From Sinorhizobium alkalisoli (GTDB lineage: Bacteria; Pseudomonadota; Alphaproteobacteria; Rhizobiales; Rhizobiaceae): a DNA stretch of 64,000 bases. The notes beneath the pieces are model-generated. The model saw nothing but the letters and a program-made list of their open reading frames with translations. It made no database searches and was not told the DNA's origin. Positions 23,632 through 62,706 of the stretch are shown piece by piece. Both the position numbers and the translations under genes were made by a program. The stretch is from NCBI RefSeq assembly GCF_008932245.1, contig NZ_CP034909.1, forward strand, positions 2,108,001 to 2,172,000, written 5' to 3'. Each line of letters begins with the position of its first letter. Position 1 is the stretch's first letter.

Positions 23632-24507
23632 TTGAGCGAGATACGCCTTTTTGTCAGCACCACCGAGAAGCAGGCCGAAGCCGTTCTCGACCTCATGACC
23701 GCAGTTTTCGGCGAGGAGGACTTTGCGATCGCGACGATGGAGATCGACGAGAAACGCGACCTCTGGGAAGCCTCGGTCTATATGATGGCGGATGAGGAAG
23801 CTGAGGTGAAGGCGCGGCTCGAAGAGGCGCTGCAGGCCGGCTTCTCCCATCTTCCGATCGAACGCGAGGTGTTGCCGGACATCGACTGGATCGCCAAATC
23901 GCTCGAAGGGCTTGCTCCCGTGCGCGCCGGCAGCTTCGTCGTGCATGGTTCCCATGATCGCGACAAGGTGAAGACCGGCGAGATCGCCATTGAAATCGAC
24001 GCCGGTCAGGCCTTCGGCACCGGCCATCACGGAACGACCGCCGGCTGTCTGGAAATGCTCGCATCCGTCGCGCGGGCGCGGCGCATCCGAAACGTGCTCG
24101 ATCTCGGCACCGGCAGCGGCGTCCTGGCGATCGCCGCCTGGAAGCTCCTGCACGTGCCGGTGCTCGCGACCGATATCGATCCGGTCGCAACCCGCGTGGC
24201 GACCGAGAACGCTCGCCGCAACGGCGTCGTCAGCGGCCTTGCCTTCGCGACCGCGCCGGGCTTCCACTCCACCACCTTCAGCGCCAACGGCCCGTTCGAT
24301 CTGATCATCGCCAATATTCTGGCGCGGCCGCTGATGAAAATGGCGCCAGAACTCGTCCTCAATCTCGCTCCCGGCGGCTCGGTCATCCTCTCGGGCATCC
24401 TCGCCGAGCAGCGCTGGAAGGTCCTCGCCGCCTATAACGGCCAGCACCTCAAACATATGCGCACGATCTGGCGCAATGGCTGGGTGACGATCTATCTGGC
24501 CAAGTAG
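23632..24507 (+). CDS. prmA: Ribosomal protein L11 methyltransferase
   Basis: A 291-residue S-adenosylmethionine-dependent enzyme that trimethylates ribosomal protein L11 in the cytoplasm. The N-terminal substrate-binding domain (residues 1-60) is followed by the Rossmann core: EIDAGQAFGTGHHGTT, motif I LDLGTGSGVLAIAA, TDIDPVA, and the substrate motif NILARPL (N-I-L-x-x-P-L). Translation starts at a TTG preceded by AAGGAAAG seven bases upstream; this gives MSEIRLFVST, the usual family start. Confidence 0.93.
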   Translation: MSEIRLFVSTTEKQAEAVLDLMTAVFGEEDFAIATMEIDEKRDLWEASVYMMADEEAEVKARLEEALQAGFSHLPIEREVLPDIDWIAKSLEGLAPVRAGSFVVHGSHDRDKVKTGEIAIEIDAGQAFGTGHHGTTAGCLEMLASVARARRIRNVLDLGTGSGVLAIAAWKLLHVPVLATDIDPVATRVATENARRNGVVSGLAFATAPGFHSTTFSANGPFDLIIANILARPLMKMAPELVLNLAPGGSVILSGILAEQRWKVLAAYNGQHLKHMRTIWRNGWVTIYLAK

Positions 24508-24614: not shown

Positions 24615-24860
24615 CGAAAAACGAAGAGGCCACCCGTTCGATCATGAACGGGTGGCCCCTTCGAAAGAAAGGCGATGCCGAAGCATCGCCATGGCCGATC
24701 GAAACCGACCATTCGCCCGCGAGCCTGAGGAGGAGGAGCGCTCGAGCGGGCTCTACCGTTCCGAAGTTGACCACCCTGAGGGAGGAGGAGAACAGATGAC
24801 CAACTATTCTCGGAACTGCAGCTTCTTGAACCGGGAACGGTTGCCCATGTTCGTTGGCCG
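24615..24860 (-). ncRNA. Candidate trans-acting sRNA with two anti-SD hairpins (alpha-r14/cuckoo-like)
   Basis: Read on the minus strand, four stem-loops follow each other. Hairpin 1 (24805-24765) pairs AGTTGGTCAT with GTGGTCAACT, allowing G-U pairs, and its loop carries CTCCTCCTCCCTC. Hairpin 2 (24751-24715) pairs GCCCGC..GAGC with GCTC..GCGGGC and its loop carries CTCCTCCTCCTC. Hairpin 3 (24690-24671) is an 8-bp stem with a TTCG tetraloop. An intrinsic terminator follows at 24657-24628. Loops with CCUCCUCC complementary to Shine-Dalgarno sequences are the hallmark of the alpha-r14/cuckoo sRNAs of alphaproteobacteria, which bind mRNA translation starts. The 5' end is not certain; a TTATAA box at 24864-24869 could set it near 24857. 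No protein gene is visible on this strand. Confidence 0.55.
24628..24657 (-). terminator. Intrinsic terminator of the sRNA candidate
   Basis: A perfect 12-bp stem (GGCCACCCGTTC / GAACGGGTGGCC, loop of six). On the minus strand it is followed by TCTTCGTTTTTCGG, a T-rich tail; on the plus strand the tail is CCTTTCG-like and poorer. It would also stop leftward read-through into prmA. Confidence 0.75.
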
Positions 24861-25065
24861 CGCTTATAACCCATAAATTCTGTAGGGAAAGATGTTTTTC
24901 CCGCATGGGAGCCATGCACCCGGCGCATAAATATGACAAATGGGCTTCGATCAAGAAATGCGAGGCGAAAGCACGGCAGGATATCGCCTCTTTCCCCTGA
25001 AGCAGGCTTTCCGCTAACATGGCGAACTCACCTGCGGTCTTCGCAAAGTTTTACCGGACGTATCC

Positions 25066-26901
25066 ATGTTTCAATCCTTCGAAGTCACTTCCACGCCCCA
25101 GTTCGGCAGGGAGCGTGTCGCCGCCTTGCGCGCCGCTTTCGCGCCGCTTGGTATCGACGGCTTTCTCGTGCCGCGGGCCGATGAATTTCAGGGCGAATAC
25201 GTACCAGCCTGCTCCGAGCGGCTCTCCTGGCTGACCGGCTTTACCGGCTCGGCCGGCGTCGCGCTTGTCACGGAACGCGACGCGATCGTCTTCGTCGACG
25301 GACGCTATGTAACCCAGCTCAAGGAGCAGGTCGACGCGAGCGTCTTCACCGGCGGCGACCTCGTCGGCGAGCCGCCGCATGTCTGGCTGGAGCGCCACGG
25401 GCCGAAGGGATGCCGCCTCGGCATAGATCCCTGGCTGCATACCGCGGCCGAAGTCCGCCGCCTGGAAAAAGCGCTTGCGACGATCGACGGCAGGCTGGTC
25501 TTGCTAGGGGACAATCCGCTCGACCGCATCTGGACCGACCGACCCGCCGCCCCGGTCGGCCGCGTAACGATCCAGCCGCTCGAGCATGCCGGTCGGCTGG
25601 CGAAGGACAAGCTCGCCGAGATTGCCGCGGCCGTCGAGAAGGCGACGGCGGCGGCCGTCGTGCTGGCAGATCCCTCCTCCATCGCCTGGACCTTCAATGT
25701 CCGCGGCAGCGATGTCCCGCATACGCCGCATCCGCTGGCACGCGCCATCATCCATGCAAATGGACGTGCCGAAATCTTCATCGACAAGCGCAAGACCGGG
25801 ATCGAACAGGAGGCCTACATCACACAGCTCGCCGACATCCTGCCGCCGGCCAGTTTCGAGGATCGCCTCGCCACGCTTTCTTCGAGCGGTGCAGCGATCA
25901 TGATCGATCCGGATCTCTCCTCCTTTGCGATCGGCGAACTTATCCGCAGCAAGGGTGGCGTGGTGATCGAGGCAACCGATCCCGCCCGCTTGCCGCGCGC
26001 CTGCAAGAATGCGCAGGAGATCGCCGGATCGGTCCGTGCCCACCTCCAGGACGGGGCCGCAATGGTTGAATTCCTCGCCTGGCTCGACAAGGCCGACCCC
26101 GGCAGCATCACGGAAATCGGCGCGACGAAGCGACTTGAAGCCCTGCGCACCGCCGTCGGCGAACGCATGCAGAATCCGTTGAAGGACATCTCCTTCGATA
26201 CTATCGCCGGCGCTGGCGCGCATGCGGCGATCATGCATTACCGGGTGACGACGGACACCGACCAGGCAATCGAAGCCGGAACCGTGTTCCTGATCGATTC
26301 CGGAGCGCAATATGTCAATGGCACCACGGACATCACCCGCACGGTGGCTATCGGTTCCGTACCGCAAGAGCAGAAACGATTCTTCACCCTGGTCCTGAAA
26401 GGCATGATCGCCATCAGCACGGCGCGCTTCCCCAAGGGCACGCGCGGCGTCGACCTCGACCCCCTCGCCCGCATAGCGTTGTGGAAGGCAGGTGCCGATT
26501 ATGCCCACGGCACGGGCCATGGCGTCGGCTCCTATCTGTCCGTGCATGAGGGGCCGCAGCGTATCGCCCGCCTTGCGACGCAGGAGTTGCTGCCGGGCAT
26601 GATCCTCTCGAACGAGCCGGGCTACTACCGCCCTGGCGCCTTCGGCATCCGCATAGAGAACCTTGTCGTCGTCCGGCAAGCGGCCGACATCGAAGGCGGC
26701 GACCTGCCCATGCTCGGTTTCGACACCCTGACCTACTGCCCGATCGACCACCGGCTCGTGCTGCCGGCATTGCTGACGGACGAGGAGCTGGCCTGGCTCA
26801 ACGATTATCACGCCGAGACGCGCGAGAAGCTGATGCCCTTGATTGCCGACGAGGAGACCCGTCGGTGGCTGGCGGCTGCCACGGAAGCGATCCGTCGCTG
26901 A
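25066..26901 (+). CDS. Aminopeptidase P family (M24B) metallopeptidase
   Basis: A 611-residue cytosolic Xaa-Pro aminopeptidase, splitting the N-terminal residue from peptides with proline in second position. Two creatinase-like N-terminal domains (1-160 and 160-320) precede the pita-bread catalytic domain. The dinuclear metal ligands are all visible: Asp in LIDSGAQY, Asp in TTDITRT, His in HGTGHGVG, Glu in SNEPGYY and Glu in IRIENLVV. The 600-residue form matches the eukaryote-like APP1 type rather than the 440-residue E. coli PepP. The start is at an ATG after a spaced GGACG; no operon partner is seen. Confidence 0.92.
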   Translation: MFQSFEVTSTPQFGRERVAALRAAFAPLGIDGFLVPRADEFQGEYVPACSERLSWLTGFTGSAGVALVTERDAIVFVDGRYVTQLKEQVDASVFTGGDLVGEPPHVWLERHGPKGCRLGIDPWLHTAAEVRRLEKALATIDGRLVLLGDNPLDRIWTDRPAAPVGRVTIQPLEHAGRLAKDKLAEIAAAVEKATAAAVVLADPSSIAWTFNVRGSDVPHTPHPLARAIIHANGRAEIFIDKRKTGIEQEAYITQLADILPPASFEDRLATLSSSGAAIMIDPDLSSFAIGELIRSKGGVVIEATDPARLPRACKNAQEIAGSVRAHLQDGAAMVEFLAWLDKADPGSITEIGATKRLEALRTAVGERMQNPLKDISFDTIAGAGAHAAIMHYRVTTDTDQAIEAGTVFLIDSGAQYVNGTTDITRTVAIGSVPQEQKRFFTLVLKGMIAISTARFPKGTRGVDLDPLARIALWKAGADYAHGTGHGVGSYLSVHEGPQRIARLATQELLPGMILSNEPGYYRPGAFGIRIENLVVVRQAADIEGGDLPMLGFDTLTYCPIDHRLVLPALLTDEELAWLNDYHAETREKLMPLIADEETRRWLAAATEAIRR

Positions 26902-62299: not shown

Positions 62300-62706
62300 A
62301 TCGCCAGTTGGCCTGTAAGCCGGGTTCTGTATGGCCCCGTCTCCCGCAGGAAACGGAACGTGGCAGCCATTCATCTGGGACTGCGCTTGCGCGCAGCCTC
62401 GTGCAACCCACCCGGATGACGGGCCTGGAAACCGGCTGGGCGCTTGCGCGCCCGTGTCATCCCTATTCGGTCTTGCTCCCGGTGGGGTTTGCCGTGCCGT
62501 CCATGTCGCCATGTCCGCGGTGGGCTCTTACCCCACCCTTTCACCCTTACTCCGCGAAGCGGAGCGGTTTGCTTTCTGTGGCACTTTCCCTGGGGTCGCC
62601 CCCGCCGGACGTTATCCGGCACCGTGTTCCCGTGGAGCCCGGACTTTCCTCACCCCGCGGCCTTTCGGCGCTTGCGGGGCGCGGCTGCCCGGCCAACTGG
62701 CAGAGG
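62300..62706 (-). ncRNA. rnpB: RNase P RNA, bacterial class A
   Basis: The catalytic RNA of RNase P, which matures tRNA 5' ends. On the minus strand the 5' part has GCCAGTTGGCC (P1) and the universally conserved GAGGAAAGTCCGGGCTCC; the middle has GGGTAAGAGCCCACCGC and AAACCCCACCGGGAGCAAGA; the 3' part has ATACAGAACCCGGCTTACAG and closes P1 with GGCCAACTGGC (62313-62303). P1 pairs perfectly over 11 bp. Length about 405 bases is normal. Confidence 0.95.

Follow-up and report, generated by a model that had tools for sequence, protein, structure and literature searches.

A cuckoo RNA consists of two to four adjacent hairpins, each of which carries CCUCCUCCC in its loop. Cuckoo RNAs and the CIN1 locus were reportedly described by Reinkensmeier and Giegerich in 2015.

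NfeR1, of the alpha-r14 type, is reported to have three hairpins with an identical CCUCCUCCC in each; its loops silence ntrB by pairing at the start region of this gene, and its LsrB site, TGCA-N6-GCAT, is located at -72 to -60 (PMC10746234). The pairing of DUF1127 with CcsR-like RNAs is also already known, as CIN1 (PMC10253847). In Brucella, the regulator VtlR upholds three DUF1127 genes and AbcR2 (PMC12595884), and LsrB is reported not to regulate the abcR sRNAs of S. meliloti in the conditions of that study (PMC7486931). Two further reports concern S. meliloti: Sm26 gave a Northern doublet of about 135 and about 200 nt in 2008, with relatives reported for R. etli and R. leguminosarum (PMC2573895), and SmelC531, seen by 454 sequencing in 2010, is equated with Sm26, stands in class 2 of the published table and occupies 2321050-2321287 on the minus strand of strain 1021 (238 nt; PMC2873474). 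No function, target or family was found for Sm26/SmelC531 in the literature searched, in which these two papers alone mention the RNA.

The window analysed here is a stretch of 64,000 nucleotides of the Sinorhizobium alkalisoli genome, and positions below are window positions unless stated otherwise. The gap between prmA and pepP holds, on the minus strand, a small RNA of the cuckoo type whose hairpins present CCUCCUCC loops; this reading, already made in the first-pass annotation from the letters of the sequence, is well supported. Since prmA and pepP both lie on the plus strand, the sRNA is convergent with the former and divergent from the latter. The parts of the locus are the following.

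23632..24507, plus strand: prmA, convergent neighbour, placed by the ORF list and tblastn, its name taken from the sequence-only annotation
25066..26901, plus strand: pepP-like aminopeptidase P gene, divergent neighbour, placed and named in the same way
24904..24927, minus strand: LsrB/VtlR-like activator box, TGCG-N6-GCAT (24927-24914) overlapping CATGGCTCCCATG (24916-24904)
24863..24891, minus strand: probable sigma-70 core promoter read from the sequence, CTTTCC (24891-24886), 17 nt, TATAAG (24868-24863)
24855, minus strand: transcription start, estimated from the -10 element and the 5' end of S. meliloti SmelC531
24855-24617, minus strand: whole sRNA unit, with two loop hairpins, the variable stem with its UUCG cap, and a pair of terminator-like stems
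24822..24855, minus strand: leader; in ORF-bearing relatives a DUF1127-like ORF separates the promoter from hairpin 1
24753..24821, minus strand: hairpin 1, loop CUCCUCCUCCCUC at 24790-24778 (helices 1-3 of alignment A4)
24715..24751, minus strand: hairpin 2, loop CUCCUCCUCCUC at 24738-24727 (helix 4 of A4)
24691..24712, minus strand: variable hairpin, UUCG-capped in this genome (helix 5 of A4)
24664..24690, minus strand: terminator 1, 8-bp UUCG-capped stem and UUUCUUU, predicted RNA about 191 nt (helix 6 of A4)
24617..24663, minus strand: terminator 2, 18-bp stem and UUUUU, predicted RNA about 239 nt

The motif CTCCTCCTCC occurs exactly twice on the two strands of the 64-kb window, at 24790 and 24738 of the minus strand, where 0.17 occurrences are expected from first-order composition. 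The minus strand from 24860 to 24615 folds with an energy of -117.4 kcal/mol and none of 200 shuffles was as stable (shuffle mean -86.8, sd 4.8; z = -6.34); in the predicted ensemble both loop motifs are open, with a mean unpaired probability of 0.84 for loop 1 and 0.93 for loop 2. The pair of hairpins with anti-Shine-Dalgarno (anti-SD) loops proposed on first inspection is thus present. Loop 1 contains CCUCCUCCC and loop 2 contains CCUCCUCCU, the window having two such hairpins; measured against the cuckoo motif, loop 1 is exact and loop 2 is one letter off here and exact in some relatives.

Downstream stand two UUCG-capped stems (24712-24691 and 24690-24671), where only one had been described. 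The second is directly followed by UUUCUUU and, on the predicted fold, is a terminator and not an additional domain. The last stem is also a terminator, as previously proposed, and has 18 bp in place of the 12 bp given; the T-runs of both serve the minus strand. At least four T are found among the final seven bases of the model match at 84 of the 87 related loci defined below (exceptions: L101, L102 and L107). A counterpart of the terminator 2 stem is present in the Sinorhizobium/Ensifer alignment and in L071, and the 18-bp stem was not found in the three Shinella loci inspected, one of which (L055) has an unrelated inverted repeat in its place. The variable hairpin is missing from several Sinorhizobium/Ensifer sequences. 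The Shine-Dalgarno sequence with ATG on the opposite strand, earlier called false-looking, indeed leads to no conserved gene among 34 distinct Sinorhizobium/Ensifer sequences: the ATG is lost in four of the 34 (one of which has GTG) and the frames behind it vary, with unlike stop positions. A short plus-strand gene was ruled out on these grounds.

Searching 40 genomes at the DNA level detected the sRNA stretch in 23 of the 24 genomes of the same genus, the one miss being 70% complete (G009), and in none of the 16 outside it. A scan of named genomes for the hairpin 2 pattern returned 28 contigs in all: three of Shinella, one of a Rhizobiales bacterium and the others of Sinorhizobium/Ensifer. 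Covariance model R1, built from 15 Sinorhizobium/Ensifer sequences, matches 26 of 151 genomes of the family, once in each and over the full model length; in the window's own genome it matches this locus only, even at E 10. According to tblastn all 26 loci adjoin prmA and/or pepP (21 both, one prmA only, four pepP only), prmA being found at 22 and pepP at 25. Model R2, built from 42 sequences, has matches at E <= 0.001 in 108 of 394 genomes, which represent 30 of 109 genera; a second, weaker match occurs in six genomes, and the weaker R2 matches, these included, are perhaps other anti-SD RNAs. From 92 R2 matches of at least 46 bits (hand count), 87 loci were studied, those of G418, G390, G339, G201 and G331 being left out. 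Within the stretches taken, tblastn finds both neighbours at 70 of the 87 loci, prmA only at 11, pepP only at five and neither at one; this corresponds to prmA at 81, pepP at 75 and either or both at 86. The sole locus with neither of them in its 1401 nt, L170, has pepP about 600 nt away.

Some rearrangements were seen around the gap. At the g100 loci L162 and L165-L167, prmA is adjacent and pepP is not in the stretch taken; in G122 (L180), of the same genus, the RNA is still beside prmA, with pepP at least 5 kb away. At L181 (G056, of carrier genus g34) just 94 nt separate prmA from pepP, with no R2 match, and the RNA has probably been lost from this genome. A survey of the gap covered 28 of 30 pepP loci (L207 and L208 left out): three carriers and 25 genomes without R2 match, 15 of this family and ten of other families outside the R2 search. 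CCTCCTCC occurs within 1500 nt upstream of pepP in one of the 25 non-carriers (L192, beyond the gap) and in one of the three carriers (L179). The remaining two carriers have none there; they are G122, with its distant pepP, and G199, where pepP lies about 600 nt from the RNA and the exact 8-mer is absent.

Alignment A4 (42 sequences, 41 distinct) was fitted to R1 and is hence biased towards the structure; in it 96.7% of cells are paired and 44 of 51 pairs show changes on both sides, the compensatory changes that the first-pass annotation had proposed to seek. Its covariation score of 0.561 compares with 0.198 (sd 0.008) for shuffles, and sliding the partner gives no more than 0.105. Both-side changes affect 23 of 23 pairs in hairpin 1 and 7 of 10 in hairpin 2, where 100% of cells are paired; in terminator 1 the paired cells amount to 99%. 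The loop motifs stay constant across A4 while the hairpin 1 stem is wholly altered, and the hairpin 2 stem (24751-24715) is near-invariant in sequence in most rows, L108 and L109 excepted. A MAFFT alignment of Shinella and Sinorhizobium (A2), in which hairpin 1 is misaligned, was excluded from these counts. As far as sequence comparison can tell, the minus-strand RNA is a conserved gene that forms its own syntenic and structural family.

A search of the window at Rfam gathering thresholds reported RNase P alone (class A RNA, window 62300-62700, 300.7 bits), which served as a landmark. The first-pass annotation had suggested a divergent alpha-r14 and a covariance search for it: at a loose threshold RF02344 gives 16.6 bits at this locus, against a gathering cut-off of 58.8, and the genome has four copies over the cut-off and two below it elsewhere. 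Membership was ruled out on this score, and the RNA belongs to a syntenic family of its own. Among the 20 of 26 R1 loci scanned, the best relative reaches 53.1 bits with RF02344; L106, L108 and L109 score 39-53 bits, and in all three the loop of terminator 1 holds a third CCTCCTCCC-like motif (CTCCTCCC or ACCTCCTCCC), as in alpha-r14. The CcsR1 model (RF02791, cut-off 65.3) gives no match in the window at E <= 10, and 22-24 bits only, on two relatives. SmelC549, described as genus-wide with four stem loops (PMC3927594), was suspected as the orthologue and then ruled out because in strain 1021 it lies on the plus strand (2371597-2371855), on the other side of rnpB. PmaR, known from Agrobacterium and one Rhizobium strain and with a pairing region reported not to be anti-SD, was set aside.

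The control region is conserved as well. At least one TGC-N7-GCA is found within 420 nt upstream of hairpin 1 at 84 of the 87 loci, whereas base shuffling yields one at about 10 of them; at L152 it stands at a different place. The box together with the following context [TC][GA] is present at 79 loci and absent from eight. In an alignment of 85 of the 87 loci (L155 and L156 left out), the box starts 57 or 58 nt from the -10 at all 60 loci with [CT]TATA, the other 25 being without this sequence. The -10 part is conserved among the relatives, and a scan with consensus promoters found no promoter at the locus. Relative to the estimated start, the window box spans -72 to -59; on this estimate, TGCG-N6-GCAT has the same spacing as the TGCA-N6-GCAT of NfeR1 and one different letter. 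The reverse complement of the Brucella VtlR motif (PMC12595884) and the window have the same letter at 12 of 15 positions by hand count, the centre being TC here and TG in the published box. Control of the sRNA by LsrB is likely, judging from this box. Beside it, at 24904-24916, there is an inverted repeat, CATGG-CTC-CCATG, similar in most relatives, which may form the other half of a LysR-type site. Elsewhere, the stretch G000:C1:1289542-1290918 carries two alpha-r14 RNAs and two DUF1127 genes (L001, L002, L172 and L173) one after another, all with the same orientation; a TGC[AG]-N6-GCAT box was found by eye at three of the four, both alpha-r14 RNAs and one DUF1127 gene.

The relatives differ in what lies between promoter and hairpins. 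An ORF of 46-57 aa separates the promoter from hairpin 1 at 26 of the 87 loci, in 9 of 22 genera (sorted by eye), and its stop lies shortly before hairpin 1 or within it; no such ORF was seen by eye at 60 loci of 13 genera, the window's locus among them, and L171, where it is uncertain, was counted with neither group. Measured from the promoter box to hairpin 1, the distances fall into two classes that match the ORF state, about 97-167 nt and about 269-340 nt. In ten 57-aa members, dN/dS is below 0.36 in 45 of 45 pairs. Pfam (10 sequences) and NCBIfam (six) gave no DUF1127 (PF06568) match for the ORF; one hhalign comparison with four DUF1127 proteins of this genome, which has seven DUF1127 genes, gave a probability of 87.7% and E 3.5e-6. 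Among the 120 homologues listed (128 found), three bear the DUF1127 name and most others are hypothetical or unnamed. When one ORF was used to search 19 genomes, it turned up at the locus in 6 of 6 carriers tested, and nowhere in the window genome or in ten other ORF-less genomes; the same search showed distant relatives, away from the locus, in two ORF-less genomes. Because the conserved promoter box stands upstream of the ORF, we infer that in these relatives ORF and RNA are carried on one transcript.

A comparison of L090, which has the ORF, with L113, which lacks it, shows the promoter, leader and start-codon surroundings aligned, and then the 3' junction (score 194, against 39.6, sd 7.7, in shuffles); we read this as the trace of an ORF deletion. 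Where L113 was compared by eye with Shinella locus L044, the letters are identical. Within the leader of the window locus the promoter and the ends alone align (69.6 against 24.2, sd 7.0, in shuffles), and this alignment revealed no recognisable ORF remnant.

The S. meliloti RNA is made, according to the two published studies (PMC2573895, PMC2873474). In S. meliloti 4H41 the orthologous stretch is 84% identical to the window and ends about 35,780 nt from the covariance-model end of rnpB; in strain 1021 the 3' end of SmelC531 is 35,743 nt from the listed start of rnpB, by the coordinates of PMC2873474. From the CAACG start to the second T-run, 4H41 has 230-239 nt, depending on the last T chosen, and the RNAs predicted in the window have 191 and 239 nt, against 238 nt for SmelC531. 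Place, strand and length agree between the 4H41 orthologue and Sm26/SmelC531, and from these coordinates we infer that the window RNA is the orthologue of the latter. The word "uncharacterised" in the first-pass annotation therefore holds for function and not for detection, since Sm26 dates from 2008 and SmelC531 from 2010. The left neighbour published for Sm26, SMc04453 (<) across a 1270-nt gap, has no match to prmA of 4H41 (+, 994 nt); SMc01885 (>) could be pepP. The Sm26 microarray probe (2321429-2321478) and predicted start (2321447, with a predicted size of about 390 nt) given in PMC2573895 lie upstream of the SmelC531 5' end, 2321287, and the band of about 135 nt matches neither of the lengths predicted here, 191 or 239 nt. 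Compared with the window, 4H41 has several hundred extra bases between prmA and the RNA (L040:3204-3683); these perhaps hold a small minus-strand ORF and may bear on the unmatched SMc04453 label.

Against four model SD sequences, the predicted pairing energies of the loops range from -7.5 to -17.5 kcal/mol. The perfect 11-mer GGGAGGAGGAG, complement of loop 1, occurs nine times in the genome, against 13 for the reversed control; seven of the nine sites stand opposite anti-SD RNA loops and two elsewhere. Being so rare and mostly opposite such loops, it implies that any pairing must use shorter stretches, and sequence alone singles out no target; a full-length 11-mer target was rejected, with just those two sites (viewed as flanking letters) to choose from.

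Several other explanations of the locus have to be weighed. It might be a mere terminator region by prmA, or belong to the 3' end of a small gene that has escaped notice, as two terminator-like stems together near prmA and, in nine genera, an ORF directly upstream could suggest; however, the two T-runs are oriented for the minus strand, the promoter upstream is conserved, the estimated start is 34 nt before hairpin 1 with no conserved frame seen between, and the S. meliloti RNA has been detected (PMC2573895, PMC2873474), which leaves very little in favour of this view. The common loop motif and box spacing, the 53 bits of L108 and L109 and the third CCTCCTCCC-like motif of L106, L108 and L109 would also suit a merely diverged alpha-r14 (NfeR1) copy with redundant function. 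We consider such a copy unlikely in view of the 16.6 bits in the window, the two loops against three, the syntenic locus of its own, and R1, which matches nothing else in this genome even at E 10. A third possibility is that the hairpins are a decoy for a protein (an RNase, an RNA chaperone or a DUF1127-type protein) or for the ribosome, with no mRNA pairing at all. The near-invariance of the hairpin 2 stem in most A4 rows goes beyond what loop pairing demands, this genome has seven DUF1127 genes, and CcaF1, a DUF1127 protein, is reported to bind RNA and to aid the maturation of the CcsR RNAs that share its transcript (PMC10253847, PMC8625941). Nevertheless, the loop sequence stays constant while the hairpin 1 stem is wholly altered, and NfeR1 is reported to silence an mRNA through its anti-SD loops (PMC10746234), so that a decoy is given only a small chance; since loop pairing leaves the near-invariance of the hairpin 2 stem unexplained, there is room for a bound protein besides pairing.

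A further question is the direction in which the ORF state changed. In a tree of prmA and pepP, several nodes of which are weak, the ORF is present in g97 and g77, the carriers that branch off first. Fitch parsimony over 28 carrier tips (12 with ORF) gives seven changes with the ORF at the root, and Dollo parsimony 11 losses after a single gain; seven or fewer changes were obtained in 78 of 1000 label shuffles, the ORF states not being strongly clustered. Weak tree support and the shuffles that need as few changes speak for repeated gain of the ORF by insertion between promoter and hairpins. This scenario appears quite improbable to us, however, as the ORF is alignable across carriers and under purifying selection in the ten tested, the earliest-branching carriers have it, and the leader of ORF-less L113 still aligns with the start-codon surroundings of L090. 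We lean instead towards repeated loss: a DUF1127-like mRNA with an anti-SD hairpin 3' end would have lost its ORF several times in Rhizobiaceae, with the hairpins and, at constant spacing, the LsrB-type promoter kept, the durable part being the 3' UTR and not the protein.

Overall, we think it likely that the locus encodes an LsrB-controlled trans-acting sRNA which masks ribosome-binding sites and has survived the loss of its ORF. The model starts from what the genomes display directly (a conserved gene, its structure, synteny and promoter box, and the presence or absence of the ORF) and predicts the start site, the regulator, the target pairing and the direction of ORF change. A LysR-type activator (LsrB/VtlR) would probably turn the sRNA on, and transcription would run leftwards out of the gap common with the divergent pepP, giving a stand-alone sRNA of about 191 nt when it ends at terminator 1 and about 239 nt when it reads through to terminator 2. 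The two stiff hairpins would keep the CCUCCUCC loops open, and these would bind purine-rich Shine-Dalgarno sequences by base pairing and keep ribosomes from loading, as has been reported for NfeR1. As to descent, the sRNA probably comes from a DUF1127-like mRNA that carried the hairpins at its 3' end, as in the CIN1/CcsR arrangement; here and in several other lineages the ORF was presumably lost and the promoter and hairpins were retained.

The S. meliloti RNA was already known, and what is added here is that the sRNA appears to be the remnant of a DUF1127-like mRNA. The origin of new bacterial sRNA genes is an open question. One syntenic locus shows, across 22 genera, both an ORF with a hairpin tail and the RNA alone, with promoter and structure near constant, and the change is therefore datable and testable. 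For Sm26/SmelC531 the results supply a structure and a family, together with a likely regulator and a mode of action that can be tested; they also point to an RNA family not reported by an Rfam 15 search of the window.

With alpha-r14/NfeR1 the sRNA has in common the CCUCCUCC loops, an LsrB-like box at equal spacing from its estimated start and its occurrence in Rhizobiaceae; it differs in having two anti-SD hairpins and not three, separate terminators, a loop 2 ending in CCU, a score under the Rfam cut-off and its own syntenic locus. With the cuckoo RNAs it shares adjoining motif hairpins. A CIN1-like arrangement, with a DUF1127-like ORF upstream, is found in 26 of 87 relatives, whereas this genome is without the ORF. 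The CcaF1-CcsR1-4 locus of Rhodobacter sphaeroides likewise has a small ORF of the DUF1127 type with CCUCCUCC hairpin RNAs behind it, but there the RNAs are four, the promoter is of the RpoH type and the protein has 71 aa. Finally, an LsrB/VtlR-type box upstream is a feature that the sRNA shares with VrsA, AbcR1/2 and the DUF1127 genes controlled by VtlR/LsrB, as reported in PMC7486931 and PMC12595884.
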